This document shows positions 105 through 41,300 of a DNA stretch of 64,000 bases, in pieces. Below the pieces are notes generated by a model. It searched no databases and was not told the DNA's origin. It worked only from the letters and a program-made list of their open reading frames with translations. The DNA is from a virus. The DNA lies in IMG/VR virus record IMGVR_UViG_3300036791_000400, positions 1 to 64,000 of that record; one strand, 5' to 3'. The position numbers were made by a program, and so were the translations under genes. The number at the start of each line of letters is the position of its first letter. The first letter of the stretch is position 1.

Positions 105-1172
105 ATGGTGGAGTTCGTTGCGAACGTTAACATCCAGGGCGAAGTGGAAAACGGGGACTACGTGCTCACGTTGACCCAGATTTCGAACGGGGGGACACCC
201 CCCGTTGACCCCCCGGAAACCCTGCCTCCCGAGGACAACTGGGTACAACCACCCCCGCCACCGCCTCCGACGGTGCAACCAGGGAGTAGCGGTCGGGTAC
301 TCAGGGCCAAGGACTTCGGCGGGATCGCCAAGGCGATGGACGCCGCCAACGACGGTGACACGATTACTGTGGCCGCTAACGCGGCACGGGAAGCGTTCAC
401 TATCACCAAGATCGTAGCGGTGCGTGCCGACAACGTGGTCTGGGACTTCAACGGCGTGCCGTCCGGCCAGCTGGCCGGCGGCGGCAAGGCGGCGATCGTG
501 CCGGCATCGGCCGCGTGCATCATCTCGGGCTTCGAGATATCCGGCTGTGGCCTGGACGCGCCGGACGGTGAGCTGACGGCGGCGCTGCGCAACGAGAGCG
601 CCGGCTGGTGCACCGTCGAGAACTGCCATTTTCATCACAACCAGAACGGCATCGCCTCGGGCTACTACAACGCGGTCATGGAGGTGAGGAACACCAAGCT
701 GATCGGCAACGGGCTGAACTCTCCTGGGCACGGCGGGCGCGGCAACACGCATAATCTGTATGTCAATCAGATCAACGAACTGACCCTGATCGATGTGGAA
801 AGCACCGGACCCATAGATGGTCATGCCCTTAAATTTCGCGGCTATCGCCTGATCATTGACGGTGGTTTCTATGAGAGTACCGTAGGTCGAAGTCTGGATA
901 TGCCCAATGGTGGTAAGTTCACCATTAAGAATGCTACTTTGAACAAGCCGTCCGATGCCTCCAACGGCACCATGCTTGGTTATATGTCCGAGTACCGCGA
1001 CAGCGGTGAAAGCAACGAGAATACCTTGGAGAGCTGCGTCATCAACGCCAACCGCCAGGGTTCCAACGAGATACACACCATGGGTGGAGTGATCACCTTC
1101 GCACCGGACAACACCTGGTCGGGCAGGCTCACCGTGACAGGGTCGGGCACGGTGGCGGGCCTGCCCGCGTGA
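105..1172 (+). CDS. tailspike-like right-handed beta-helix protein
   Basis: 355 residues. The N-terminal 45 residues look like a short attachment region. A proline-rich linker follows (about residues 32-57, with a run of Pro at 49-55), then a repetitive region of short beta-strands with N, G and C turns typical of pectate-lyase-like parallel beta-helices (about 65-350). Such proteins bind or depolymerise surface polysaccharide in phage tailspikes and cell-surface enzymes. No catalytic site is assigned. ATG at 105 follows a GGGGGAC purine tract. Its TGA overlaps the GTG of the next gene by 4 bases, so the two are probably co-translated. It is separated from the main fibre cluster by the terminase genes, so a non-virion role is possible. 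Confidence 0.6.
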   Translation: MVEFVANVNIQGEVENGDYVLTLTQISNGGTPPVDPPETLPPEDNWVQPPPPPPPTVQPGSSGRVLRAKDFGGIAKAMDAANDGDTITVAANAAREAFTITKIVAVRADNVVWDFNGVPSGQLAGGGKAAIVPASAACIISGFEISGCGLDAPDGELTAALRNESAGWCTVENCHFHHNQNGIASGYYNAVMEVRNTKLIGNGLNSPGHGGRGNTHNLYVNQINELTLIDVESTGPIDGHALKFRGYRLIIDGGFYESTVGRSLDMPNGGKFTIKNATLNKPSDASNGTMLGYMSEYRDSGESNENTLESCVINANRQGSNEIHTMGGVITFAPDNTWSGRLTVTGSGTVAGLPA

Positions 1173-1348
1173 CCACTTACTCACCCGCCGAGACCGCGCT
1201 GATCATCACGCTGCGGCGTCAGGTCGCCGACCTGGAGCGTCAGGTCGATGAATTGCGCGCAGCGGTTGCAGCCTTGCTGGCTCCGGATCACCCGGAACAG
1301 GTGCTCGTTGCGGACCCGTTGTGGCAAGTATCTGATATCACCCACTGA
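1169..1348 (+). CDS. small coiled-coil protein of unknown function
   Basis: 59 residues starting at a GTG that overlaps the TGA of the spike-like gene (GTGA). Residues 10-42 are a heptad-rich stretch of alternating Leu/Val with Arg, Glu, Asp and Gln, beginning LIITLRRQVADLERQV, strongly suggesting a coiled coil. There is no membrane segment or signal peptide. Tight coupling to the preceding gene suggests a trimerisation or assembly partner of the spike, but this is inference. The reading frame closes at TGA 1346-1348, and the next coding start is nearly 100 bases away. Confidence 0.55.
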   Translation: MTTYSPAETALIITLRRQVADLERQVDELRAAVAALLAPDHPEQVLVADPLWQVSDITH

Positions 1349-1403: not shown

Positions 1404-1436
1404 CCTTGCACGGTTACCCATTTTTCCCCTGCAAGG
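1404..1436 (+). promoter_or_regulatory. inverted repeat overlapping the RBS of the first PEP-CTERM gene
   Basis: CCTTGCA (1404-1410) and TGCAAGG (1430-1436) are perfect inverted repeats with a 19-base loop. The downstream arm overlaps the Shine-Dalgarno AAGGA (1433-1437), which lies 8 bases before the ATG at 1446. In RNA the stem would hide the ribosome site, suggesting translational control of the PEP-CTERM cassette. A T-run (TTTTT) lies in the loop. Structure is seen in sequence; function is inferred. Confidence 0.4.
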
Positions 1437-1445
1437 AACCCACTC

Positions 1446-2117
1446 ATGAAAACCCTTCTTCTCGCCAGCACAGTGATCGCTGTCGCTGGGCTCGCGTCGG
1501 CCGGCAGGGCCGACGCAACAATAATCGCGGCGTTTTCCCAGAACGGCGTCGCTGATACGGTCAGCGCGACCGAGAGCGGCACCACGGCCACCACCATCTC
1601 GGTGGTCAACGGTTCGGCCGATGTATCGGCGCTGCTCGGCAACCCGGCGGTGCCGAATGCCGTGTTCAATCTCAACGCCGGCTCGATCGACAGCGCCCAG
1701 CTCGTGGCGGGTCTCGTGGTGCAGCACTACGCTGGCTCGTTCAGCATTTGCAGCAACGCCGGCTGCGTCGGTGCGGGCAACGTGAACTACCTGTCCGGCA
1801 GCTTCAGCGACGCCGCTGTGGGCACCAACGGCGGACCCGGGCTCGACGTGAACGTGAATAATCCTCCGGACACGCTGAGCCTGACCTCCGACGTGATCGC
1901 GGCGAACCTGCTGGCCGCGCCCAACGACCTCCAGCTGACCTTCTCGGGCCTCGCCACCCCGCCCGGTATCCACATCGACGGCACCACCATCGCGGCGTTC
2001 ACCGCCGGGTTCTCGGGCACGGTGAGTTCCAGTGCGGCGGTACCTGAGCCTGCCAGCCTCGGTCTGCTCGGGCTCGGCCTGCTGGGGCTTGGCCTGGTAC
2101 GGAGGCGCCGGGCGTGA
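1446..2117 (+). CDS. secreted PEP-CTERM sorting-signal protein 1
   Basis: 223 residues. An N-terminal Sec signal peptide (MKTLLLAST followed by a hydrophobic stretch, probable cleavage near AGRADA, about residue 24) is followed by a Ser/Thr/Gly/Asn-rich beta-type body with one close Cys pair (SICSNAGC). The extreme C-terminus is a textbook PEP-CTERM tripartite signal: VPEPAS at residues 199-204, a Leu/Gly transmembrane helix, then RRRRA. In bacteria this signal is cut and anchored by exosortase (EpsH/XrtA family) for surface or extracellular-matrix delivery. No exosortase is seen in the window, so host exosortase would be needed. The gene overlaps the next one by 4 bases. It is very unusual cargo between phage genes; acquisition from a host is likely but not proven. 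Confidence 0.85.
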   Translation: MKTLLLASTVIAVAGLASAGRADATIIAAFSQNGVADTVSATESGTTATTISVVNGSADVSALLGNPAVPNAVFNLNAGSIDSAQLVAGLVVQHYAGSFSICSNAGCVGAGNVNYLSGSFSDAAVGTNGGPGLDVNVNNPPDTLSLTSDVIAANLLAAPNDLQLTFSGLATPPGIHIDGTTIAAFTAGFSGTVSSSAAVPEPASLGLLGLGLLGLGLVRRRRA

Positions 2118-2971
2118 AGAAGCTCCTGCTCGCGGGGGTTATGGGAGTGGCGACGTTCGCCGCCCCCGAGATCATGCCCGCCATGGCCGGCACCGTCATC
2201 GGCTCACAATGCGGTGGTGCCGCCGACTGCACCTATGACCCGGTCAACGACATCACCTACTTCGACCCGGCCGTGCTGCACGTCACAGCCACGGGTGCCA
2301 CCGGTCAGGGTCCGGTGCTGCTCAACAACAACACCACGTTCTCGATCCAGGACGTGTCGGGTCAGAACGTCGACCAGCCGCTGACGGTGTATATCGGCAC
2401 CCTGGTGGGTCAGCCGGCGCCGACCATCACCTCAGCCAGCTACACCAACCCGGCCGATGTCACCCAGGCGATCCTGGGGTCCATCACGCAACCGTCGCCG
2501 ATCAACGGGGTCAATCTTCCGGCCACGATCACGGTGGGCAACGGTGCCGGTCAGGACATCTACAGCCTGCTCGGCTGCATGGGGTGTGACGCCAGCCTGA
2601 ACCTGACCAACCTCCAGGCGGGTGAGGCAGCGGACGGCCACGCCGGGGTGACCCAGCTGAAGGTCTACGGGTTCCAGATACCGCAGGACATGGTAGGCGG
2701 TGACGAGATCAACGTCGTCGGTTCGTTCGCCGACGGCTCGATCGTGTTCCCGTTCGGCGAGGCGGTGGACCCGAAGAACCCGAACAAGGTCACCATCTTC
2801 GACACCAGCTGGACCAACACCGGCTTCGTGGACTGTGCGGGGCCGCCGTGCACGATGAACCCACCCCCGCCACCCCCGCCGCCGCCACCCCCAGTGCCGG
2901 AGCCGGGGTCCCTAGCGCTCCTGGGAGCCGGTCTGGGCTTCCTGGGGTTCCTGAGGCTGCGGCGGCGCTAA
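2114..2971 (+). CDS. secreted PEP-CTERM sorting-signal protein 2
   Basis: 285 residues, GTG start overlapping the preceding TGA (GTGA). A signal peptide (MKKLLLAGVMGVATFAAP, probable cleavage near AMAG at about 26) leads a beta-rich body with several Cys pairs (CGGAADC, CMGC, DCAGPPC). A run of about eleven prolines is followed by the PEP-CTERM signal VPEPGS at 261-266, a hydrophobic Leu/Gly/Phe helix and a terminal RLRRR. The body differs from protein 1, so this is not a simple duplication. Translational coupling implies fixed stoichiometry and a joint surface role after host exosortase processing. A strong hairpin terminator follows, so the pair forms its own cassette. Confidence 0.85.
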   Translation: MKKLLLAGVMGVATFAAPEIMPAMAGTVIGSQCGGAADCTYDPVNDITYFDPAVLHVTATGATGQGPVLLNNNTTFSIQDVSGQNVDQPLTVYIGTLVGQPAPTITSASYTNPADVTQAILGSITQPSPINGVNLPATITVGNGAGQDIYSLLGCMGCDASLNLTNLQAGEAADGHAGVTQLKVYGFQIPQDMVGGDEINVVGSFADGSIVFPFGEAVDPKNPNKVTIFDTSWTNTGFVDCAGPPCTMNPPPPPPPPPPPVPEPGSLALLGAGLGFLGFLRLRRR

Positions 2972-3024
2972 GACCGCTGTAGCGCCTTCCTGGGCCGATT
3001 GAGAGGCCGGTCTGGGAGACGAGG

Positions 3025-3056
3025 CAGGGCGCCAGTGCCAGACTGGCGCCCTGTTT
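3025..3056 (+). terminator. hairpin terminator after the PEP-CTERM pair
   Basis: Perfect 12-base stem CAGGGCGCCAGT (3025-3036) / ACTGGCGCCCTG (3042-3053) with a 5-base loop, followed by TTTCACT. The stem is strong and the T-tract short. It ends the PEP-CTERM cassette 54 bases after its stop codon. Confidence 0.75.
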
Positions 3057-3067
3057 CACTCACACTA

Positions 3068-3154: not shown

Positions 3155-3478
3155 ATGTCCGAGAACGTCTCAAAACTGGTCCCGCGTATCCCCCGGGTGA
3201 CCCAGGCCCAGCTCGACGCGGCGGGCGCCAACACGATCGCCGAGCTGGCGCTGCACCGCGCGCTCTACCAGGTCGAGGGCGGGCACCAGTCCGAGTTCAG
3301 GTCCATCGACCGGTTCCCGGTGCTCGTCGTGGCGTGGAACCGCTGCACCGAGATCGAGCGCGCCCGGTTCGTCAGGCTGCTGGGTGACACGATCGAGGAA
3401 TATCTGATCGAACGTAGCGAACAGGCCCGGCGCATCGCCAAGGGCGTCAGCGTCCGGCGTACCCGGCCCACGTGCTAG
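3155..3478 (+). CDS. hypothetical protein
   Basis: 107 residues from the ATG at 3155, chosen because a GAGGTGAGGAA purine tract (3141-3151) stands just upstream; an in-frame GTG at 3137 is less well placed. The protein is soluble, with an N-terminal Lys/Pro/Arg-rich segment, a helical centre (ELALHRALYQVEGG) and a basic C-terminus ending RRTRPTC. No family is recognised. It is the first gene after the composite operator/hairpin element, so it is likely under control of that site, and it overlaps the following small gene by 7 bases. Confidence 0.6.
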   Translation: MSENVSKLVPRIPRVTQAQLDAAGANTIAELALHRALYQVEGGHQSEFRSIDRFPVLVVAWNRCTEIERARFVRLLGDTIEEYLIERSEQARRIAKGVSVRRTRPTC

Positions 3479-3669
3479 ACTGGCTGTTCAGCTGGCAGCA
3501 CCGGCTCCGGCGCAGGATCGACCTGGATATCCTGTGGCCGGAGTGCAAAGCCAACGCCCCGGATATCACGCTCGCCAAGGTGGCGTTCGCCATGCACGCG
3601 TTTCATGACCGGGCGTGGCTGGTGCTCGGCGAGGATGAGATCAGGCGCCAGATCGACGAGCTTAAATGA
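3472..3669 (+). CDS. small hypothetical protein
   Basis: 65 residues, GTG start inside the end of the preceding gene. The N-terminus is aromatic and basic (MLDWLFSWQHRLRRR) and could be amphipathic; the rest is helical with acidic residues near the end (GEDEIRRQIDELK). Its TGA overlaps the ATG of the next gene. The family is unknown. Together with its neighbours it forms a three-gene operon of small proteins that runs into the convergent terminase gene. Confidence 0.5.
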   Translation: MLDWLFSWQHRLRRRIDLDILWPECKANAPDITLAKVAFAMHAFHDRAWLVLGEDEIRRQIDELK

Positions 3670-3834: not shown

Positions 3835-5235
3835 TTAAGTCCAGGCGGCGCTCGTGAATTTCTTCACCACGGGCTTGGGCCGCATGCGGGCCAGCACCCG
3901 TGAGGTCACGTCAGCGTTCACCGCCAGCGCCATATACTGCCCCGCGTCGGCCACGTCCGACCAGGGGTGTAATTTCTCGGGCTTATCCTCCAGCTGGCCG
4001 TCGCGCTTCTTGCGGTAGCGGTACTGGCTCGCCAACGCTCGCACCAAAGTAGGACATCCTTGTCGCGAGATTTGGATGGCGGGTTCGCCGCCCGGAAACG
4101 CTGACAGCAGCTTCTCGAACGCGAGCAGCCTGGGCGGGATATCGTTGGTCACCGCCGGGTACGCGGCGAACCCGGCACTCTTGAGTACGTCGAACGCGTT
4201 CTCCTCGGCGAGCTGGGATTTATAGGCGCCCGCCGGGTCGCCGACCACGAACGAGCGCTTGCCCAGATAGGGCTCGACGAACAGCCGGGGCTTGAGCTGC
4301 TCGTTCACGAACTGACGCAAACCCATGTCCTCGGAAGTGACCTCCTCGAACACCAGCAGGCGCCCCAGGAAGTCCACCTGACCGATGAGCGCGCAGGGCG
4401 TGCGGCCGAAATCCATGCCGATCATGACTGGTCTATGCGGGTTGATCACCGTGACCATGTCGCGCACATGCACATCAGGGCGGAACGAAGACCTGAATAC
4501 CGCCTGGCCCGCGTTCGAGGTTCCCCACTCAGACCTGATCTGGGTGGCGATCCGGTCCTCGGACGCGCCCGACATCGCGTTTTCGTAGTAGTTCGCGGGC
4601 AGGTTTTCCAGGTTTTCGGCGTAGGGTGAGAGCCCGCTGGGTTGCTGGAAGATTTCCCAGCCGGGCACCGGGTTCAGTATAAAATGCTCGTAGTAGGGGC
4701 TGTCCGTGGTGCCCGGGTTGCTGTCCGCGATCAGCCCGTGCCAGGTGGGTCCGCCGTTGATCTTGGATGGGTACCGCCCGATGCGCTCCATCAGGCCGGA
4801 GACCACCTCGTATTCGATCTCGCGCAGCTCGTTTAACCAAGCTCCCGTCAACTGCATAGACAGCAATCTTCGTATGTCTTCTCTGGTCTCTAAGGGTATC
4901 ATGATCCAGTCCGAGTTAATTGTAGTATTATCCTCCAGGGGCGCCCTGACCTGGATCGTGGCATCGGTCACGAAATAGCGCACCATGGGATTGAGGTACT
5001 GCTGCACGTCCGGCAATACCGTGGTGCGCAGCTGTGCCAGCGTGTTGCGTACCAGAGCAAACCGGGTATTACGCACACCATTGCTGTCAGGACGCTGCTG
5101 GCGGGCGCGGCGCAGGAGTTCCATGATCATGCCCATGGACTTGCCCGAGCCCACCGGACCGGTAATAAACCTGAACCGCGCGTCCGAGAGCATGAAGCGT
5201 TCCACCGTGGGCGGTGGCTGATAAATCAAGCTCAT
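3835..5235 (-). CDS. terL: large terminase subunit (DNA packaging ATPase/nuclease)
   Basis: 466 residues. It drives genome packaging at the portal: an N-terminal ATPase pumps DNA and a C-terminal RNase H-fold nuclease cuts it. Walker A is GPVGSGKS at 26-33. The Walker B/acidic region fits GAWLNELREI at 131-140, a form common in phage terminases. The nuclease domain shows candidate metal ligands in MIGMDFG (Asp 275) and VVGDPAGAY (Asp 333). Length is normal for the family. The ATG overlaps the stop of the upstream small gene by 4 bases. The gene runs opposite to portal and capsid, so packaging genes are divergent from the head operon. Confidence 0.92.
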   Translation of the reverse strand: MSLIYQPPPTVERFMLSDARFRFITGPVGSGKSMGMIMELLRRARQQRPDSNGVRNTRFALVRNTLAQLRTTVLPDVQQYLNPMVRYFVTDATIQVRAPLEDNTTINSDWIMIPLETREDIRRLLSMQLTGAWLNELREIEYEVVSGLMERIGRYPSKINGGPTWHGLIADSNPGTTDSPYYEHFILNPVPGWEIFQQPSGLSPYAENLENLPANYYENAMSGASEDRIATQIRSEWGTSNAGQAVFRSSFRPDVHVRDMVTVINPHRPVMIGMDFGRTPCALIGQVDFLGRLLVFEEVTSEDMGLRQFVNEQLKPRLFVEPYLGKRSFVVGDPAGAYKSQLAEENAFDVLKSAGFAAYPAVTNDIPPRLLAFEKLLSAFPGGEPAIQISRQGCPTLVRALASQYRYRKKRDGQLEDKPEKLHPWSDVADAGQYMALAVNADVTSRVLARMRPKPVVKKFTSAAWT

Positions 5236-6121: not shown

Positions 6122-6156
6122 AAGGTTGCGTGTTCAGGGGGTTATACGCTAGATGT

Positions 6157-6175
6157 GTTCCCTACGGTAGTGAAC
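6157..6175. promoter_or_regulatory. 19-base palindromic operator in the terminase/portal divergent region
   Basis: GTTCCCTACGGTAGTGAAC is symmetric except at one pair and the central base. It is the reverse complement, with 18 of 19 bases matching, of the site at 8635-8653. It lies between the leftward small terminase start (6121) and the likely portal start. It is among the best-preserved copies of the dispersed motif. Confidence 0.7.
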
Positions 6176-6195
6176 CACAGGGGGGCAACCGGCCG

Positions 6196-8415
6196 TTGCC
6201 ACTGGCGCAAGCAGGACTATCGGTCTCCACCCCACCCGCACAATCACGTGCCTCGGGGGGCTTCCTGCGCGTGGTGTCGCCGGCCCAGCTGGACGATCAG
6301 GACCGGGCCAATCTGGCCCGCCGTTCGGCGGCCGCCCGGCCCGAACCCGAGCAGGAAGATATCGGCGCGTTCATCCGCCAGCAGTGGTACATCTTCAGGA
6401 ACCACCGCAACCTGGGCAACAACCCGCTGAACCAGCGCCTGCTGCGTTCGCAGCGCATGTTCGATGGCAAATACGACCCGGAGAAACTCGCCCAGATCAA
6501 CGCGTTCGGCGGCTCCGAGGTATACTCGCGCCTGGTCGCGATCAAGTGCCGGGGTGCTACCAGCCTGATGCGCGACGTGTACCTCGGCCCGGACCGGCCG
6601 TGGGACATCGAGCCTCAGCCGGACCCGCCCATTCCACCCGAAATCCAGGCGAACATCGTCACACTCGTGTCCACCGAGATGCAGACCATGCAGGCCGCCG
6701 GCCAGCCGGTCACCTCGGATCAGGCACACATGCGCTACATCAGCCTGCTGCACGGAGCGCAGCAGGCGGCCAGACGCAATGCCATGATGCAGGCCGAGGC
6801 GGCGGCTGACAAGATCGATGACATCCTCCAGGCGGGTTTGTTCTACGACGCGCTGGGGGAGTTCCTGCTCGATCTGCCGCTGTTCCCCTACGCGGTGCTC
6901 AAGGGGCCGGTGGTGCGCATGGTGCCCAAGCTGAGCTGGGTGCAGGGCAAGCCCAGCCTGCTCAACAAGCCGCAGATGTTCTGGGAGCGGGTGAACCCGT
7001 TCCAGATTTACTGGTCACCCGGTGCGTCGCGCATCGAGGACGCGGATGTCATCGAGCGCAAGCGCTACACGCGTTCCGATCTCAACGACCTGATCGGGTT
7101 ACCCGGTTATGACGAACAGGCGGTGCGCAATGCGCTGGAGGATTACGGCCGGGGCCTGCGCGAGTGGCTGGACGCGCCCGATCCCGAGCAGGCGATCAAC
7201 GAGGGTCGCGAGGACCCGTCGCTCAACCGCTCCCAGTACATCGAAGGGATCGAGTATCACGGGCGCCTCCAGGGGAGTTTATTGCTCGACCAGGGCGTCA
7301 ATAAGAAACTTGTTCCCGATCCGGACCGGGATTACCAGGTGCAGTCCTGGGTGGTGGGGCGCTGGACCCTGAAGACCCAGATCAACCCGAGCCCGCGCCA
7401 GCGCCACCCATACTTCCTCACTTCGTTCGAAAAAATACCTGGGACTGTGGCAGGGCATGCCCTGCCCGATTTGTTAGAGGACATCCAGGAAGTTGCAAAT
7501 GCAACTTTGCGCAGCATGGTGAACAACTTATCGATCAGCTCGGGACCTCAGGTAGTTGTCAACGACGAGATGGTCTCGTCGACCGAGAACGGCGATGAAT
7601 TATACCCGTGGAAACGTTGGCACGTGCAGGGCGATCCCTTAGGTAATCAACGCGAGCCGATCACGTTCTTCCAGCCCCAGAGCAACGCGCAGGAATTACT
7701 CCAGGTCTATCAGGCCATGAACGTCATGGCAGATGAGATCAGTGCTATTCCCAGGTATTTGACGGGCGAAAGTTTGTCTGGCGGCGCGGGACGCACCGCA
7801 TCGGGCCTGAGCATGCTGATGTCCAACGCCTCGAAGGTGCTCCAGACCGTGGCCGCGAACGTGGACGGCGACGTGCTGGACCCGTTACTTAGTCATCTTT
7901 ACGAAATGATCATGCTGACCGACACCTCGGGGATACTTACCGGCGAGGAACAGGTCACCGTCAAGGGCTCCTCGGTGGCGATCCAGAAAGAGAACGCCCG
8001 CACCAAGCAATTACAGTTCCTTCAGATCACCGCCAACCCGATCGACGCACCCATTATCGGCGAGATGGGTCGCGCCCGGGTATTACGCGCCGTGGCGCAG
8101 GGCCTGGACCTGCCCGACGACGTGGTGCCCGACGATCAGACGCTGCAATCTCAAATCCAGGCACAGAAAGAAGCCCAGCAGGCATCGCAGGCGGTACTCG
8201 CCCACGCCCAGGCCCACGGCGCGGCACCCGGACATCCCGGTTCCGGCCCGCCCGGGCAGTCACCCGGCGGTGGGGCCAAGCCGCCGGGTGGCGCCGGTTC
8301 ACCACCCGGCCCGCAGGCGCAGGGCAGTCCGGGACCTTCGCCCGGTGCCGGCGGTGTCGCCTCCAACACACCACCCGTGAACAACTTCCAGCAGGGGATA
8401 TCAACCAATGGCTAG
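6196..8415 (+). CDS. portal (head-tail connector) protein
   Basis: About 740 residues; forms the dodecameric vertex through which DNA is packaged. The N-terminal third (starting LARRSAAARP) contains conserved-looking podoviral portal features such as a FRNHRNLGNN segment and SEVYSRLVAIKCRGATSLMR. The C-terminal 90 residues are a Gly/Pro/Gln/Ala-rich disordered tail. The open frame extends back to GTG 6130, but that would place the operator inside the gene and leave only 8 bases between divergent starts. A TTG at 6196 preceded by AGGGGGG is preferred, and GTG at 6271 or 6274 is an alternative. Position before scaffold and capsid supports the call. Confidence 0.8.
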   Translation: MPLAQAGLSVSTPPAQSRASGGFLRVVSPAQLDDQDRANLARRSAAARPEPEQEDIGAFIRQQWYIFRNHRNLGNNPLNQRLLRSQRMFDGKYDPEKLAQINAFGGSEVYSRLVAIKCRGATSLMRDVYLGPDRPWDIEPQPDPPIPPEIQANIVTLVSTEMQTMQAAGQPVTSDQAHMRYISLLHGAQQAARRNAMMQAEAAADKIDDILQAGLFYDALGEFLLDLPLFPYAVLKGPVVRMVPKLSWVQGKPSLLNKPQMFWERVNPFQIYWSPGASRIEDADVIERKRYTRSDLNDLIGLPGYDEQAVRNALEDYGRGLREWLDAPDPEQAINEGREDPSLNRSQYIEGIEYHGRLQGSLLLDQGVNKKLVPDPDRDYQVQSWVVGRWTLKTQINPSPRQRHPYFLTSFEKIPGTVAGHALPDLLEDIQEVANATLRSMVNNLSISSGPQVVVNDEMVSSTENGDELYPWKRWHVQGDPLGNQREPITFFQPQSNAQELLQVYQAMNVMADEISAIPRYLTGESLSGGAGRTASGLSMLMSNASKVLQTVAANVDGDVLDPLLSHLYEMIMLTDTSGILTGEEQVTVKGSSVAIQKENARTKQLQFLQITANPIDAPIIGEMGRARVLRAVAQGLDLPDDVVPDDQTLQSQIQAQKEAQQASQAVLAHAQAHGAAPGHPGSGPPGQSPGGGAKPPGGAGSPPGPQAQGSPGPSPGAGGVASNTPPVNNFQQGISTNG

Positions 8416-10396: not shown

Positions 10397-11335
10397 ATGG
10401 CTATCACTCCCGGTACACCATGGGCCGGATCAACCCCGGCCCCGCCGTATTCCGGCACGTTCATCCCTCAAATCTGGTCCGGAAAGCTGATCGAGAAGTT
10501 CTACGCCGCGACGGTCCTCTCGGCGATCGCCAACACCGACTACCAGGGCGAGATCAAGAACCAGGGCGACACGGTCATCATCCGGACCAAGCCGACCATC
10601 ACGATCCATGACTACACCACCGACCAGGACCTGCTGATCGAGCGCCCGTCCAGCAACGTGGTGGACTTCCCGATCAGCTTCGCTAAGTACTTCAACGAAG
10701 CCCTCGACGACGTGATGGAGCTGCAAGCCGACATCAACATGCTCAGCATGTGGGCTGACGATGCCGCCGAGCAGATGAAGATCACGATCGATACCAGTTG
10801 CCTCAGCCTGATCGACCCTGGCGTCGTGGCCGTCAATAAGGGGAACACCGCCGGGAAAATCTCCGGCAACATCGTGCTCGGCGCTACCGGCTCACCGGTG
10901 GCGCTCACGCCGCTGAACATCCTCGACAGCATCGTTGATCTGGGTACCGTGCTCGACGAGCAGAACATCCCGGAGACCGGACGCTGGCTGGTGATCCCAC
11001 CGTGGGTGGCGGCGCGGATCAAGAAGTCCGATCTGCGCAACGCGTCCATCTCGGGTGATGGCGTGTCGCTGATGCGCAACGGGCGGCTCGGTATGATCGA
11101 CCGGTTCACGATGTATTCGTCGAACCTGCTGCCGACCGCGACCGAGGGGTCCTCGACCGCGTTCCGCATCTTCGCGGGGCACCCGCACGGGGCCACCTTC
11201 GCCAGCCAGATCACCAAGATGGAGACCATGCGCTCGGAGCGTTCGTTCAGCACCTTGCTGCGCGGGCTCCAGGTGTATGGTTTCATGATCCTGGACGGCA
11301 TCGCGATCACCGAACTCTATGCGATTGCCGGCTAG
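10397..11335 (+). CDS. major capsid protein
   Basis: 312 residues. It forms the icosahedral shell and very likely has the HK97 fold common to tailed phages. Features include a long N-arm (first 35 residues, Pro/Gly-rich), a spine-helix-like segment (SFAKYFNEALDDVMELQAD) and a C-terminal part around RTKPTITIHDYTTD and LVIPPWVAARIKKSDLR resembling podoviral coat proteins. The gene follows the scaffold by 22 bases and is followed by a perfect operator palindrome, which may mark the end of the high-level head transcription unit. Confidence 0.85.
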   Translation: MAITPGTPWAGSTPAPPYSGTFIPQIWSGKLIEKFYAATVLSAIANTDYQGEIKNQGDTVIIRTKPTITIHDYTTDQDLLIERPSSNVVDFPISFAKYFNEALDDVMELQADINMLSMWADDAAEQMKITIDTSCLSLIDPGVVAVNKGNTAGKISGNIVLGATGSPVALTPLNILDSIVDLGTVLDEQNIPETGRWLVIPPWVAARIKKSDLRNASISGDGVSLMRNGRLGMIDRFTMYSSNLLPTATEGSSTAFRIFAGHPHGATFASQITKMETMRSERSFSTLLRGLQVYGFMILDGIAITELYAIAG

Positions 11336-29012: not shown

Positions 29013-29231
29013 ATGCCGCAAACCACGTTCAGCAATCCCAACGTGCCGCACATCCAGCGGCCACTGGCTGAGCTGGGCTCGCTGGCCACGGTGACCGAGA
29101 GCCTGCGTCAGGGCGTCGAAAGCCTGGGTGGCCACCGTGGCGGACCCCTGGACCGCGCGGTGACGTTGCAGGACCTGGTGATACTCGGGCTGACCACCGA
29201 GGCACAGATCATGGCCGTGCTGAAGAACTGA
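29013..29231 (+). CDS. small hypothetical protein
   Basis: 72 residues starting one base after the preceding stop. A helical, hydrophilic N-terminal part is followed by GPLDRAVTLQDLVILGLTTEAQIM, resembling a short oligomerisation helix. Its TGA overlaps the next ATG. By position it is a minor virion or assembly protein. No family recognised. Confidence 0.5.
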   Translation: MPQTTFSNPNVPHIQRPLAELGSLATVTESLRQGVESLGGHRGGPLDRAVTLQDLVILGLTTEAQIMAVLKN

Positions 29232-29692
29232 TGGCCGCCACCATTCACATCAACGAGGAGCGCGACGGCGATTGGGTGATGACCCGCGTCGGCGGCGTGT
29301 TCAACGACAAGACCGACCACGTGATCGCGCTGCATCGCGACGGCCGCACCTGTGGCGGCGTGGTGTTCACCGGCTATCTGGGCGCGTCCATCATGCTCCA
29401 CATGGCGGGCAACGAGACCAACTGGGCGACACCCGATTTTCTCTGGATGGTGTTCGACTACGGGTTCAACCAGCTGGGCTGTCGCAAGCTGGTGGGCCTG
29501 GTGCCGGCGACCAACCACAGGGCACTCTCGGTGGATATCAGGCTGGGGTTCACCATCGAAGCCAGGCTCGCTGACATGATGACGGACGGGTCTGACCTGC
29601 TGATCCTCAGCATGACCAAGTCAGCGTGCAAGTGGCTGCGCTATGCCCCGCGTCACTACCGTAGTAATCTTGCGAACCTGGAGGTCAGATAA
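29231..29692 (+). CDS. GNAT-type acetyltransferase-like protein
   Basis: 153 residues. The fold pattern fits GNAT: N-terminal strands, FDYGFNQLGCRKLVGLVPATNHRAL (helix then the strand-turn usually binding acetyl-CoA, with Asn-x-Ala around NHRAL) and RLGFTIEARLAD as the typical Gly-Phe strand. Phage proteins of this type occur in podovirus internal-virion operons and may acylate a protein or small molecule. An operator core lies near its 3' end (29656-29664). It is followed by a methyltransferase and a PAPS-reductase-like gene, interrupted by an antisense homing-endonuclease-like gene. Confidence 0.6.
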   Translation: MAATIHINEERDGDWVMTRVGGVFNDKTDHVIALHRDGRTCGGVVFTGYLGASIMLHMAGNETNWATPDFLWMVFDYGFNQLGCRKLVGLVPATNHRALSVDIRLGFTIEARLADMMTDGSDLLILSMTKSACKWLRYAPRHYRSNLANLEVR

Positions 29693-30135: not shown

Positions 30136-30963
30136 TTGGGGGGTGGCAAGGGCGGGGCACCCGCAGCACCTAACTATGCACCGATCGCCGCATCTGACAT
30201 GCAGGCGGCGCAGCTGGACGCGCAGACCTCGAAGGACCAGCTCGACTGGGCGAAGCAGCAATACGCCGACCAGGCGCCCTATACCAAGGCGTTCATGCAG
30301 TCGGCCGCCGATGCGCAGGACGCAGAGACCCAGTCGGCCAAAGAGGCGCAGGATTACTACAAGAGCACCTACCAGCCGATCGAGACCCAGTTCGCTCAGC
30401 AGGCGCAGGGCTGGAACACCCCGGCGCGTGCCGCCTCGGAAGCAGGCCGGGCCGAGGCGGATGTGGCGTCTTCGTTCGACCAGCAGCGCACCGCCGCATT
30501 GTCGTCACTGGAGGGCTACGGCATCGACCCGAGCCAGACCCGCTACGGCGCGCTTGATCTGGGTACCAGGATATCCCAGGCCGCCGCCACGGCATCGGCG
30601 GGCACTCAGTCAAGGCTCAATACCGAGGCCACCGGGCTCGCCCTGGAGGGCGAGGCGATCAACACCGGCCGGGGCTACCCCAGTCAGGTGGCGCAGTCGT
30701 ACTCGACCGCCACCGGCTCTGGTTCGCAGGGCGTCACGGCGGGGCTGAACACCAGTTCAACCTATGGCAACATGATGGGCTCGCCGACCCAGTGGTCTGG
30801 GTTGGCGAACCAGTCGCTGGCCGGTGCCGCCAACACCATGAACATGGGCTTCAACAACCAGATGGCCGGATTTAATGCCAACGCCGGGATCGCGGCGAAC
30901 CAGTCCTCGGGCATCGGCGGGTTGGTCGGTGCCGGCATCGTAGCCGGGGGCATCGCGATATGA
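30136..30963 (+). CDS. internal virion/core protein (small)
   Basis: 275 residues, TTG start preceded by AGGAGG, giving a good spacing. It is Ala/Gln/Ser/Gly-rich and helical (AQLDAQTSKDQLDWAKQQYA), with a glycine-rich C-terminus (QSSGIGGLVGAGIVAGGIAI) able to insert into membrane. This composition is typical of small internal core or ejection proteins of podoviruses. It overlaps the methyltransferase gene by 4 bases. The assignment is by composition and position. Confidence 0.55.
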   Translation: MGGGKGGAPAAPNYAPIAASDMQAAQLDAQTSKDQLDWAKQQYADQAPYTKAFMQSAADAQDAETQSAKEAQDYYKSTYQPIETQFAQQAQGWNTPARAASEAGRAEADVASSFDQQRTAALSSLEGYGIDPSQTRYGALDLGTRISQAAATASAGTQSRLNTEATGLALEGEAINTGRGYPSQVAQSYSTATGSGSQGVTAGLNTSSTYGNMMGSPTQWSGLANQSLAGAANTMNMGFNNQMAGFNANAGIAANQSSGIGGLVGAGIVAGGIAI

Positions 30964-31625
30964 TCGATCAGACCCTGCTGACCCAGGTATCGCAGGTGGC
31001 GCTGGAGCGCGGCGTGCGGCTGTTGCAGGGCTATCGGCTGGCCGATACTGACTACGATCACATGATGGTCCTGCTGGGCATGCTGGGGCCGCAGCTGGGC
31101 GCACGCATCCTGGACGTGGGTTCCGGGTTCGGCGAAGCGGCGCACCTGCTGCGGGTCATGCGGCCCGATCTGAAATTCATGCTGCTCAACAACAATCGGT
31201 TCCAGCTCGCCCACACACCCGAGGACCTGTCCAGCTGGTACGGGGATATGCACGACGTGCCGTTCAGCAACGGCAGCTTCGACGTGGCGATGTTCCTGTA
31301 CTCGCTGTGTCATGCCGACGATCTGGGCCAGGTGCTGCGCGAGGCGGCGCGGGTGACGCGCCCCGGCGGCATGCTGTTCGTGTATGACTATGTGCGCGAC
31401 GCCGGCGATGATCTCCTGGCTGAACGGATGCTGTGTTCGCACTTCTTTACCGCGTCGGTGCTACGCATCGCGCTTGACGACGCGGGCTGGAACGCGCCGG
31501 TGTTCTATCGGTTGACCACCGGCAACGACGCGGTGTTCCGTCGCATGGTCGGCGACGATGTGGAGAACTACCAACGCATTATGCGCGACCTCACTCCGGT
31601 AGTGATCAAGGCGTGGCGGGAATGA
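30960..31625 (+). CDS. class I SAM-dependent methyltransferase
   Basis: 221 residues. Motif I ILDVGSGFGEA at about 50-60 is the SAM-binding loop; motif II region LKFMLLNNNR; a motif IV-like FDVAMFLYSLCHA; then the post-motif GGMLFVYDYV. The closest general class is small-molecule or natural-product-type methyltransferases rather than DNA methylases (no DPPY/NPPY catalytic motif). The substrate is unknown. It lies between an internal protein and a PAPS-reductase-like gene with 4-base overlaps, so they are co-expressed. Confidence 0.75.
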   Translation: MIDQTLLTQVSQVALERGVRLLQGYRLADTDYDHMMVLLGMLGPQLGARILDVGSGFGEAAHLLRVMRPDLKFMLLNNNRFQLAHTPEDLSSWYGDMHDVPFSNGSFDVAMFLYSLCHADDLGQVLREAARVTRPGGMLFVYDYVRDAGDDLLAERMLCSHFFTASVLRIALDDAGWNAPVFYRLTTGNDAVFRRMVGDDVENYQRIMRDLTPVVIKAWRE

Positions 31626-32356
31626 GTTTGTTCGAACCCCTGGAGCGTCATGACAAGATCGCGTTGAGCTTCAGCGGGGGTAAGGACAGCCTTGCCTGCG
31701 TGCATCTGTTCCGCGACCACCTCGATCGGATTACGATCTACCACAACGACACGGGTGACCTGCTCCCCGAGATGATGGAGAGCGTCGCGAGGGTAGAAGC
31801 CTTTGCGCCGCACTTTGTGCGCATCAACTCCAACGTCTCCGAGTTCATCGCCAAATGGGGCTTGCCCACTGACCTATTACCCTACAGCGCGCATCCGATC
31901 GGACGCGCGATGGGTGAGGGCAAGAACCCTCTGGTGTCGCGCTACGATTGCTGCTGGTCGAATTTGATGTTCCCGCTCTATGCCCGGGTGCTTGACGACA
32001 AGAACACCCTGCTCATACGGGGCACCAAGTCAGCCGACATGAACGTGCTGCCGATCACCTCAGGCGAGGTCACCGACGGGATCGAGATTTACTATCCGAT
32101 CCAGAGCTGGACCAACGACGACGTGATGATCTACCTGCGGCGCAACCAGATACCCATTCCCCGGCTCTACAAATACATGACCAACTCGCCCGAGTGCGCA
32201 CGCTGCTCGGCGTGGTGGGGCGAGGGTCGCGCCGCCTATCTCAGGCAGTTTCACCCGGACATCTGGGCCGACTACGACAAGCGCTTGCAGGTGGTGATCG
32301 ACGAGGTGGCGCTGCCGTTGGCCAATCTCCGTCGTGAGGCAGGAGTGACCGAATAA
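31622..32356 (+). CDS. PAPS reductase/PP-loop ATP-pyrophosphatase-like protein
   Basis: 244 residues from ATG 31622 overlapping the preceding TGA. The PP-loop SFSGGKDSL lies at 16-24. Later features include YDCCWSNLMFPLY and LIRGTKSADM, then the Cys pair ECARCSAWWGEG. The family uses ATP to activate substrates (PAPS reductases, tRNA thiolases, DndC-like proteins). In phages such genes may serve sulphur or nucleoside chemistry; no target can be named. It is translationally coupled to the methyltransferase, suggesting one pathway. Confidence 0.75.
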   Translation: MSLFEPLERHDKIALSFSGGKDSLACVHLFRDHLDRITIYHNDTGDLLPEMMESVARVEAFAPHFVRINSNVSEFIAKWGLPTDLLPYSAHPIGRAMGEGKNPLVSRYDCCWSNLMFPLYARVLDDKNTLLIRGTKSADMNVLPITSGEVTDGIEIYYPIQSWTNDDVMIYLRRNQIPIPRLYKYMTNSPECARCSAWWGEGRAAYLRQFHPDIWADYDKRLQVVIDEVALPLANLRREAGVTE

Positions 32357-35385: not shown

Positions 35386-38300
35386 ATGCCGCTCGACATC
35401 AACGCCGACCCGAACGATCCCGATGTACTGACCAAGCAGCTCGACGACCAGCGTTCACAGGCGCTGCGCCCGTCGAGCCTGCCGTATGCCCAGACCGACA
35501 CGCCCTCCCCGCCGACCGGTCAGCCGACCGACGAGGTGCCGCCCACACCAACAGCAGCACCACCGGCTCAGGGCATTACGACCACCACGCCGGCAGCGCC
35601 GACAAGGCACGGGCGTCCGGCGCCACCAGCGCCGGGTAGTTATCATTACGCCGACGACGCACAAGGTGCGGGCACCGGCGGGACCACAGCCGGCTGGACT
35701 TTCCCGCCGGATATTCCCGACGCGCCGCCACCGTCCAAGTCCGGCCTGGGCCGCGACATGGTGCGTTCGTTCTGGCAAGGCGCGGTCGCGATGGGCGACG
35801 GTGCGGTGCAGGCCGCGCACGCAGTGACCAACCTGATCACGACCAACCCCGACGTGAACAAGGCGTTCCAGTCCGCGCATCAGTACATGACCAGCTCGAT
35901 CGAGAGCAGCGTCGATGCGATGTCGCCGGCCGACAGGCAGGCGATGCGGGCCAAGTTCACCGCACTCTGGTCAGGTGAGAAGGACCCCGAAGGCAACCTG
36001 ATCCCGAGCCCGTTCGAGGTCGGGTTCGGCCGCTACGTGGCGCTCAACGCGGCGAACATGCTGCCGTCCTGGGGGCCGATGCTGATCCCCGGCGGGGTGC
36101 TCGCCAAGGTGGCGATCTCGGGCATCACGATGGGCGCGCCGAGCGCGGGCGAGATGTACACCCGGCTCTACGACGGCGTGATGAAGGCGCCGCAGTCAGA
36201 GATGGAGCAGTCGCCGGCGTACACGGCGGCGATCAAGGCGGGCCAGTCCGACGAACAGGCGCGGCTGGAGGTGCTGCGCGGCGCGGCGATCCTCTCGGTC
36301 GGCACCGCCGGTGCGCTCGGTACTGCGGCCGGTGCCGGGGTAGGCGGCATCCTGGCCAGGGGTGCGCTGGGTGGTGGGGAGCGGATAGCATCCCGGATGG
36401 GCATCGGTGCTGCCGAGGCCGGTGCCACGATGGGGGTACAGGGCGCCGGCACCGAACTGGCGGGCCAGTACGGCGAGAAACGGGCGGGCATCCGGCAGAA
36501 CTACGATATCGGTCAGGTCATCGCCGAGGGCGTGTCGCAGGGTTTGACCGGCGCGGCACTCGGTGCCGTCGGCGGGGTGTTCCACAGGCCCACAGCAGCC
36601 GAGGTCAGAGAGGAAGAACGCCCGCCAGCGCCAGGAGTATCATCGGATACGTCGGCGGCGCTCACCGAGGCGCTGACACCCAGCACACCTGAACCGGGTG
36701 GTCCCACCACGACGGCTGATATGTCGGGCATCCCGGGTTATTCTCCCTCGGGCGTCGAGACCATCCCACGTCGGCCCATGCCAGCCCCACCAGCACCGCC
36801 GGTGGCGGCGGGCGAGCCCACGGGTATCCCAGGGTGGTCGCCAGAGGGACCGGCGCCTACAGGCTCCACAGCCGCTCCAGCCAGTGCGCCGCCCACGGCA
36901 CCAGAAACCACCCCAGGAGTACCCCCCACACCATCAGCAGCGCCGCGACCAACGCCCCAAGCAGCACCCCAAGCAGCACCGGAAGTACGACCCTCCGCAG
37001 GAATGAAGGCCGGCGAGCTGCGCGACGCGCTGACCCAGATGACGGGTCGGGCGCCGCCGGTGAAGACCAGCGTGGGCGATCTTCGCACGGCCTACGACCG
37101 CGAGGTGGCGCGTCAGGCATCATCCACGGTAGCATCGGACGTGACCGGCAGGCAGGTCGGGTCACAAGCACCCGGCGGTGACGGAGGTCCGGAACCCGAG
37201 GCCGTCGCCGGGAAGGCAGCCCCTTCGTCGGAGGTCGATCAACCGGTAGGCTCACTCCCGGTAGTGACGCCTTCGACGGAGGCGGCGAGGGTCGAGGCTG
37301 AGACCCAGGCCGAACCCGGCCCAGATATCACCGTTGCGCCCACCGAGGCAGTTTCCTCCCAGGTGGCGCAGGGGGAGACCGCGCCCGCAGGTCGGGAGGC
37401 AGCGCCCACTCCCAAGGGCGAAGCTGCTGAGGACGCGGTCGAACCCGCCAAGCCTAAGATTACACCCACCAAGGGCGACACCATCGCCGGCTACAACGTC
37501 GACCACGACAAGGTAACCGGGCAGGTCCACGCGGTTGCCAAAGACGGGGTCATCGCGGTTCGTGACAGCAACGGCGAACTGCACGCGGTCACGCCTGAAA
37601 ATGTCCTGGAGCACACGCCCAAGCCCCTCACCAAGGGCGAACAACTGCGGGCCGAGCGCGTCGCCAAGCGCGCCGCTGAGAAAGCCAAGCTCACAGGTGA
37701 GAAGATCGAACCCGCTACCGCCCACGTCGCCGGCGAGGAGCAGGAGGTCGAGACCAAGGCTCCCGAGCGCGAGCCGCGCAGCCTGCCCGAGGCGCGTCAG
37801 GACGTGCGTGACGCCCTGGAAATGGCGCAGCGGGACATCCAGCCGGTCAAGGGAGTGAAGGCATCCCAGGTAGCGCAGAAGGCGGCGCAGGAGCTGGGCG
37901 AGCGGTTCGCCAAGGCGAAGACCGAGGGCGACCTGCACGACGCGATCGCGCACTGGGGGTCGGATAACCCAAACCCATTACCCCTGAGTACCACGCGCCG
38001 CTCGGCGCTGGCCGACCGCATGCTCAAGCTGCTCACCGGCAAGGGTCTCGACGAATACCGTACCGGCGAGACCCCCGAGGCACGGGCTGCGCGGGTCGCG
38101 GCCGAGGCACGCGAGGAGATCGCGCGCCAGCCCAAGGCGGTCGAGGACGAGCGCACGCAGCGCAAGACGGCACTTGAGGAAGCGCACGCGCGTGACGCCG
38201 ATGTCGAGCGCGAGGTCGCGCATGAGGTCGGCGAAGCAGCGGCACCTGAAGCAGAGGCTGAAGTCACTCCGGTAGTAAAAGAGCCAGAGGCGGCGACTAA

Positions 38301-41300
38301 GGCCAAGACCACCAGCAAGGCACGCGAGGCCGAGCGGCTACTGAAGGATGTGCTGGACGGTAAGAAGACCCCGGTGCAGGCCAGCGAGGAATACGGCCTG
38401 CCGAAGAAGGGCGCCAAGCCACGCGGCGAGGGGCTGCGCACGTTCCTGGAATATCTGGTCAACGAGGCCAAGCGCGCCGAGAGCGAGGGTGAGCGCGAGC
38501 GCATCATCGCGAAGTCCGAGGCGCAGAACAAAGCCTCCGAGCGAGCGGGCGGCGAGCATCCCAACAAGAAGAAGGCGCGCACCGAGACCCTGCAACGGGA
38601 ACTACAGCGTGTCGGTCCCGAGTACGCCGAGAAGATACGCGGCTATGCGCGCGAGATCGCTGATCCGATCCGGAAGGCCGCTGATGAAGCGGCGGCAGTC
38701 AAGCAGGCAGCGGCCGAGAAGATCGCGGCGAAGCTGGGTAAGGGTCCGCAGGAAATGGCGGCGCCTGAGCGGGCGACACCGGATGGTATCGGTCCCAGCG
38801 CGTCACGCTTTGTACAAATGGCGCGCGATCCGCGCATCGGTGCCAATCTGGTGCGGCATCTGAAAGCTGCGGCGGCGGTCGGCCGGACACTCAGTCTCCA
38901 TGATGTGCTGCGGTTCGTGCGGGATGATCCGTTGGTGCGTGCCGAAGCCAGACCGCTGCACGCACTGGCGATGAGACTGCTGAGCAGTCGACTATTGCCT
39001 GATGTGCCAGTGCTGACCCCGGAGCAAGGGCGGGCGCGCGGCCTGGTTGATGACCAGCGCATGGCGCGTTTCCGATCCGGTAATCTATACGGATATTCGG
39101 CGATGGAACACTCCACGCCGCACATCGTACTCAACCCAGATACGTCGTTTGGCCATATCGAGACGGCGTTGCATGAGGCCATGCACGCGGTGACTTCGCG
39201 TTACATCGAACATCTGCGCGAGACCGCTCCCAACCACCCGGATTTACAGGTGCTGCGCGCGATCAAGCGTGAGCTGAATGATCAGAAAGACCTCGCTTAT
39301 ATGACCGGGCGGATCAGCGGGGACCAGCTCGACAGGATTAACTACGCGTTGAAGGATGAGCACGAGCTGCATACCGCGCTGATGACCAGCCCCGAGGTGC
39401 AAGCCTTCGCCGCTGGTGGGCAAGCTTCTGACGGATTACGGGCTGAGCTGTCCAGGCTGGGCTTCCCACCGCGTGAACAGGGTCGGTCTGTGTGGCGCTA
39501 CTTCACCGACTGGGTACGACGCGCGCTGGGAATGGACAAGCCAGCGACGGTTAGCGAGTACACGCTGCTCGACCATTTGCTGCGACCGATGCAGGAGATC
39601 ACCGAACGCGGCGGTGAATACGGTCGCTCGATGGATGAACTCAGACAATTCCAGCGCGAGTTCGAGCACGACGCACCAAGAGACCCCGAGCTGCGTGCCC
39701 AGGCCGAGCCCCTGTATCGCACCGCGACCTCCAGCATGGGCGATCGCGTGCGCGACACCGCCGATCGTGCCCTCGAACACCTCCCCGACGCGCACACCAT
39801 GGGCGACAAGGGGCAACAGTTCCTGTTGAACGGCGCCACCACCGACGGGATCGTGTCGCGCTATAAGCCTTTAATACCGTCGTTGGAAACCTGGCGGAAC
39901 GCCCGCGAGGCGATCGCCCGGGTGGGCAAGGTGTTCTCAGATAAGTTCGCCGACGCCACCTACAAGCTCACCAACGGCTACGCTCAGATCAAAGACCGCA
40001 ACGCGCTGGGCCAGCTGATGAACGACGCGACGATCGCCGAGGCCAAGTTGGGCTCGGGGGTGGCAGCCGACGCCAACGCGCACCTGACCACGCCGGCGCA
40101 GAAGGCAGCCCTCGCAGACCTACAGGCCCGCTACAACGGACTGTCCGACAAGGCCAAGGCGTTCTACGACAACGCGCGCGACATGTACCAGCAATGGCAC
40201 ACCACCAAGCGCGATGCCGAGAAGCGGTCACTGCTCAATACCTGGTGGCCGGACGCTAGCGACATCGACCGGAAGGCGTTTCTCAAAGCTGCTACGTCGA
40301 AGACCGCGATGGAGAAGTATATCGGGTCCGAAATCTCGCCCAAGTTGGGTCGCGCGATCGGTAAAATTTACAGCCAGGGCTTCGTTCGGGGAGACTATTT
40401 CCCGCTGCGCCGGCACGGCGATTATGTGGTGCGCTACGGCGACCGCGACGATCCCACCAAGTATGGCGTGGAGATGTTCGAGAAGCGCCGCGATGCCGAG
40501 GCGCGGCGCAAGGAGTTGCTGGCGCGCGGTGACGTAGACGACGTGTACCAGGTCTCCCAGCGTTCCCGCAGCTCGATCCGCGACATCGCACCCGACCATC
40601 CGGCGGTGGCTGAACTGACCGACGCCATGATCGCACGCGGCACGCCCACTGCCGAGGCGCACGCGGTGCGTGACCAGCTCCAGAGCATACTCCTGGATCA
40701 CGCGACGCGCTCCGAGGTTGCGCGCGCCAACATGCGGCGCAAGGGCGTGAAGGGTGCATCGATCGATCAGGGACGGGTACTGGCCGATGAGTTCCTCAAC
40801 ATGCAGGGCTCGCTCGGGCACCTCGAACACGGTGCTGCGGTGGCTCAGGCACGCAGTGCGATGCGCCGCGAGGTCGAGGACCTCGAAGGGCCGCGTGCGG
40901 TGCAGTCGGGCATGGCGGTCACCGGTCGCCAGGTACTGCGCGAAGCCGAGAAACGCGACGCCACGATCGCCGATCCGAACAGCCTGATGGCATCGCTGGC
41001 CCGCAAGGCCAACGTGTTCTCGTTCGCTCACGCCCTGATGTCGCCCTCGCACATGATCACGGCGAGCATGGAAGCGCACACAAACTCCATGGCGATCCTG
41101 GGGGCGCGGCATAACTGGGGCCGCGCGGGGCTGGCGCTCACCACCGCCATGAGACAAGCGGGTCCGACGATGTTCACTACCGGAGTGAGGAAGACCCTCG
41201 CAGCGGTCAGAGGCGAGCTGAAGGCGACCGACTGGAACATGTCGGACCTCCTGCGTGACCGGTTCATCAAGGCGGGTGCCAATCGTGCGGGCATGAACAT

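Follow-up and report, generated by a model that had tools for sequence, protein, structure and literature searches.

What does a phage gain when its host places a phage protein on the cell surface? The question is raised by two adjacent genes for PEP-CTERM proteins, which are normally chromosomal, in the window analysed here (64,000 nucleotides; positions 1-64,000 of the 66,649-bp IMG/VR record IMGVR_UViG_3300036791_000400). Sorting by exosortase has ties to exopolysaccharide, flocs and biofilms, and the roles of its many substrates are poorly known. The record was identified as a tailed phage based on genes for terminase, T7-type portal, MCP, tail fibres, an internal virion protein and DNA polymerase. 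As the first-pass annotation had claimed, the pair sits among phage genes: the large terminase TerL (phrog_2, E 8.5e-26) was mapped convergent with the pair at 3835..5235 on the minus strand, the T7-type portal (phrog_332) at 6130-8415 and the MCP at 10397-11335. Approximately 124 bp at the start of the record (1-124) recur at 66519-66642 (L003 6520-6643), and a short fold-back palindrome comes after the repeat; with about 66.5 kb the genome is therefore likely to be nearly closed, though IMG/VR calls the record linear. Possible auxiliary genes in the late region encode a PAPS-reductase-type protein (31613-32356), a methyltransferase (30960-31625) and an acyl-CoA N-acyltransferase-like protein (29231-29692), and an ORF of 2404 aa with an LPD39 polyvalent-protein domain extends over 35386-42600.

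Gene 1 (1446-2117, plus strand, ATG start) encodes a PEP-CTERM protein of 223 aa and is the founder of a family named F1. Gene 2 (2114-2971, plus strand, GTG start) encodes a PEP-CTERM protein of 285 aa with a 57% identical relative in L074. The two adjacent, coupled genes annotated at 1446-2971 were thus found as ORFs, and their GTGA overlap is consistent with translational coupling. Both proteins open with a lysine-led hydrophobic segment followed by an AxA-type site (..RADA/T.. and ..PAMA/G..), in agreement with the signal peptides assigned to both at first reading. The signal peptide of gene 1 (MKTLLLASTVIAVAGLASAGRADA, 1446..1517, plus strand), which has no lipobox, was predicted from sequence, hydropathy and a helix in the structural model; that of gene 2, whose hydropathy is below 1.6, was called by inspection alone from its AxA-type site. 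Beta-rich bodies had been described for the two proteins. This was confirmed for gene 1, the AlphaFold model of which has a confident beta-rich body and a C-terminal helix (pLDDT 86, pTM 0.75), while the model of gene 2 (pLDDT 46) was too poor for use. No fold match to the gene 1 model was obtained in PDB or BFVD at E<=1e-3, and the fold gave no clue to function.

At the extreme C-terminus both proteins carry a Gly/Leu-rich membrane helix and a basic tail. The PEP-CTERM tail of gene 1 (VPEPASLGLLGLGLLGLGLVRRRRA, 2037..2114, plus strand) scored 34.3 bits (E 2.7e-9) against PF07589 in the whole-record scan and 26.3 bits against TIGR02595, and that of gene 2 (VPEPGSLALLGAGLGFLGFLRLRRR, 2891..2968, plus strand) scored 30.2 bits (E 5.2e-8) and 25.3 bits, the TIGR02595 cut-off being 16. 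On the protein sequences PF07589 gave 30.0 bits for gene 1 and 25.6 bits for gene 2 (cut-off 20.7), and a PF07589 scan of 14 control genomes gave no match. The canonical PEP-CTERM C-termini recognized by eye are thereby borne out by both profiles, whose failure had been named as grounds for dropping the idea. A stalk of 11 prolines, visible in the sequence at 2861..2893 (plus strand) and kept in L074, precedes the tail of gene 2.

The pair is immediately preceded by a coiled-coil ORF of 59 aa (1169..1348, plus strand). L004 and L062 also have an ORF of this kind (..LRAAVxALL..) ahead of their PEP-CTERM genes; in L006 (12467-12845), a record with a TerL 78% identical to that of the window phage, such an ORF is followed by the start of a PEP-CTERM-like gene, which looks unlike F1 and is truncated where the contig stops. 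Neither the coiled-coil ORF nor the small one-helix and P/G-rich neighbours described below had a family match in our searches. The RBS hairpin of the first-pass annotation was found as a 7-bp stem, CCTTGCA/TGCAAGG (1404..1436, plus strand, -11.5 kcal/mol), which would hide the Shine-Dalgarno sequence of gene 1; it is weak when taken alone (z -1.2), but equivalents with changed bases occur in L004 and L130 (z -3.0 in L130). The "strong terminator" downstream was reduced to a terminator-like inverted repeat (3021..3057, no strand assigned), since its 16-bp stem (z -4.6) is without a proper T run and the terminator scan did not report it. A search for sigma-70-type promoters at the cassette gave none. 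TTTGCAC and TTTGCAAAGG were considered as a phage-wide promoter motif and rejected, not being enriched in the window.

The extent of the gene 1 family was determined by repeated scans of IMG/VR. Gene 1 alone returned one relative (L004, 69%), a two-member alignment returned 14 loci and a nine-member alignment 32, and a separate scan for VPEPA[S/T]LxLLG-type tails returned at least 119 stretches. Clustering of the PEP-CTERM proteins by body alone, with signal and tail removed, covered at least 160 proteins in at least 139 loci and placed F1 in at least 92 uncultivated-virus loci, some of them partly overlapping or near-identical, so that 92 loci are not 92 independent viruses. At least 12 smaller families and at least 17 singletons were also obtained. 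Among the matches listed, the same tail is carried by about 30 unrelated bodies, some in tandem. Gene 1 shares 33-69% identity with the rest of F1. A phrog_2-type terminase was present in 27 of 50 tail-pattern records tested, and therefore at least half of these are clearly phages. The search for the cassette in related phages, which had been proposed as a check, thus turned the initial picture of one odd phage into that of a widespread class.

Outside these viruses, F1 had no match among 50,697 phage records or 72,556 plasmids and no convincing match in PHROGs. Two narrow pattern scans of 84,980 prokaryote genomes for the F1 core subfamily gave no confirmed member; nearly the same patterns recovered just 32 of the at least 92 viral F1 loci, and the negative therefore excludes the core subfamily and not F1 as a whole. 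F1 is apparently an undescribed and widespread virus protein family, and it opens a first way into at least 92 uncultivated-virus loci.

The genes of the pair move between unrelated phages. In L004 (9 kb, including the end of a terminase gene and a portal gene) gene 1 is the sole detectable similarity to the window phage, and in L074, which belongs to a 111-kb record, the shared gene 2 is accompanied by no more than a weak helicase match; the moron-like character proposed for the cassette, that of an inserted, mobile gene, is borne out by these two loci. L062, from another metagenome, has the window order of F1, a second PEP-CTERM gene and convergent TerL (66% identical), and its second PEP-CTERM gene differs from gene 2. 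In L007, which comes from a related phage (TerL 60%), the PEP-CTERM gene is a different one: its body is unrelated, and it lies between the portal and MCP genes. Where terminase and portal are of another type, F1 takes several positions: it precedes TerS or TerL in L015, L022 and L161, lies between TerL and the portal gene in L151, L157 and L158, and follows the portal gene in L017. In other phages it shares its strand with TerS, TerL and portal. A small ORF at 3472-3669 of the window has a relative directly before TerL in L007; in the window phage it lies downstream of the 3' end of TerL on the opposite strand, a sign of local rearrangement.

Among the matches listed, two or three PEP-CTERM genes were found in 19 of 139 loci, and a P/G-rich repeat ORF was found near F1 in 36 of 91 F1 loci, 34 of these with both genes on one strand, at a median distance of 60 bp. 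That of the window phage is at 65429-66064 of the record (L003:5430-6065), upstream of the pair across the joined ends. P/G-rich repeat proteins with PDNSLP, PDQGLP, PSHPI and GIWPPP motifs adjoin many phage PEP-CTERM genes (L003, L065, L151, L158, L017, L004 and others). A one-helix protein of 60-75 aa (ALPPAFLLLVxLNIxFLG...), with no Pfam or PHROG match, is encoded immediately before several F1 genes or a short distance ahead of them (L131:4402-4611, L136:1114-1323, L155:3223-3450, L012:9603-9806, and also in L111, L101 and L062).

Conservation of the tail was examined in 24 distinct tails from loci chosen by body sequence. Glu-Pro is present in all 24 and Pro-Glu-Pro in 18, the first proline being replaced before EP by K, A, I, T, L or N in the other six; every tail holds a Gly/Leu-rich helix and basic residues. 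In an alignment of 37 diverse F1 members the tail Glu and Pro are among just seven invariant columns. When 28 F1 records were compared with PF07589, 25 matched at E<=0.01 and 21 passed the cut-off. Median dN/dS was 0.16 for the body and 0.14 for the tail (133 pairs, non-independent). Purifying selection acts on both body and tail of F1.

Compared with bacterial exosortase substrates, the phage proteins agree in having a signal peptide, unrelated bodies, Pro-Glu-Pro, a Gly/Leu-rich helix and a basic C-terminus and in passing the profiles; what sets them apart is that phages encode them on mobile cassettes, that the record yielded no exosortase and that the two narrow scans did not find the F1 body in bacterial genomes. 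The best full-length NCBIfam match was the floc protein PepA (NF033554; 47.1 bits, cut-off 80). It runs through the tail alone, F1 body-only sequences match no NCBIfam model, and homology to PepA was rejected. Unimolecular phage spanins have an N-terminal export signal, a periplasmic part and a C-terminal membrane helix. The pair resembles them in the export signal, the predicted periplasmic part and the helix and differs in the conserved Glu-Pro before the helix and in having no lipobox, for which reason spanin membership was rejected. T5 Llp is a small lipoprotein, made early, which jams FhuA and stops non-productive adsorption (PMC9586334). Like Llp and other exported superinfection-exclusion proteins, the pair is phage-encoded, would be exported to the envelope and has a similar proposed purpose; unlike Llp it has a larger body and a proposed exosortase route, and as far as tested it is no homologue of Llp. 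With no cysteine at the signal cleavage sites, and hence no lipobox, membership of the Llp-type exclusion lipoproteins was rejected.

The first-pass annotation knew of no described phage system of this kind. Text searches, with subscription journals mostly outside reach, found no paper describing phage-encoded PEP-CTERM proteins as a system, but exosortase-type C-termini (TIGR03118) on hot-spring virus contigs had been listed as cell-derived genes without further study (PMC11003980); these are likened to F1 by description and not by sequence. The exosortase substrate as a kind of protein and the moron as a kind of gene are both known; as far as testable, what is new is their combination as a widespread, mobile class of virus genes.

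No exosortase above the cut-off was found in 23 phage records and no tyrosine integrase in 21, many of the records being fragments; one sub-threshold exosortase match (15.5 bits) was seen in the record of L013. The host enzyme would therefore be needed, and F1-type phages look mostly virulent and dependent on host exosortase.

The explanation that we favour, with a probability of about 0.45, is that the pair are morons of mostly virulent phages whose products are exported by Sec, processed by host exosortase and active on the cell surface or within the exopolysaccharide. The proteins would be made during infection. Expression is probably late, as other phages carry F1 within their packaging operon; the cassette of the window phage is convergent with TerL, unlike that arrangement, and late timing rests on the other phages. 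Sec would export both proteins, the C-terminal helix would hold them in the membrane and host exosortase would process them at the Pro-Glu-Pro tail. The tail evidence supports this exosortase step, which we consider probable; the steps beyond it are conjectural. Counted against the explanation are the missing first proline in six of the 24 tails and the several F1 members below the PF07589 cut-off. Given exosortase processing, action at the surface or in the matrix is quite likely: processed proteins might sit on the infected cell or in its exopolysaccharide and alter what phages stick to, perhaps through a change in how exopolysaccharide is held. Progeny might thereby be kept from adsorbing uselessly to infected cells, debris or matrix, a job that Llp does by another route, but anti-adsorption in particular is doubtful as the purpose. 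Late expression would suit a change to the dying cell, its debris or matrix better than an early block of superinfection.

In bacteria, PEP-CTERM proteins attach exopolysaccharide to the cell and are linked to flocculation (PMC9850573, PMC12188702), which counts for the favoured explanation too. The phage proteins may instead bind or reorganise exopolysaccharide as floc proteins do, altering aggregation or virion release from biofilm with no block to adsorption. Overexpression of PepA moves exopolysaccharide from the soluble to the cell-bound state (PMC9850573), exosortases are tied to exopolysaccharide (PMC12188702), and the proline stalk of gene 2 and the common P/G-rich neighbours would suit such a role; the F1 body, however, is unrelated to PepA, and we regard this explanation as unlikely. 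Less probable still is a decoy, by which the phage would flood the host exosortase so that host PEP-CTERM proteins serving as receptors or matrix anchors go unsorted. The tail is indeed the sole part common to all families, and no exosortase above the cut-off was found in the phage records, but a pure decoy needs little beyond a signal peptide and a tail, whereas the F1 bodies are conserved under purifying selection.

A protein for lysis or envelope disruption, with spanin-like topology and the tail as a mere membrane anchor, would agree with the export signal and C-terminal helix, with the probable late expression in relatives and with the small one-helix ORFs beside some F1 genes. It is rather improbable, since there is no lipobox and a plain anchor need not keep the invariant Glu-Pro. 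The position of F1 between terminase and portal in several phages could indicate a component of the virion in which the export signals are incidental; an export signal and a membrane tail are ill-suited to cytoplasmic assembly, the position varies among related phages and the gene is swapped, all of which makes this very improbable. That PEP-CTERM proteins belong normally to chromosomes would speak for passing host genes, or for the contig misjoin of which the first-pass annotation had warned, with no phage function at all. This has almost no probability left: L062, from another metagenome, keeps the same gene order, and it, L151, L157 and others, with the same genes inside phage operons from many metagenomes, led us to reject misjoin and host contamination; in addition, none was confirmed in the 84,980 genomes (two narrow scans) and F1 is under purifying selection.

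Returning to exosortase-processed morons, the data suggest that many phages use the host surface-sorting machinery for their own proteins. Host exosortase use may, tentatively, be a general strategy of virulent environmental phages, in which an exchangeable pool of mobile PEP-CTERM genes, led by the virus-specific F1, would remodel the surface of the infected cell; the neighbour of such a gene often encodes a P/G-rich protein or another PEP-CTERM protein, in some cases with a proline stalk. F1 keeps its exosortase tag while its genome context changes, and its members thus provide small, testable substrates. Many of the PEP-CTERM-carrying records are 40-43 kb long (those behind L027, L029, L034, L040, L046, L071, L090, L095 and others), which points to at least one common type of phage genome in that size range.
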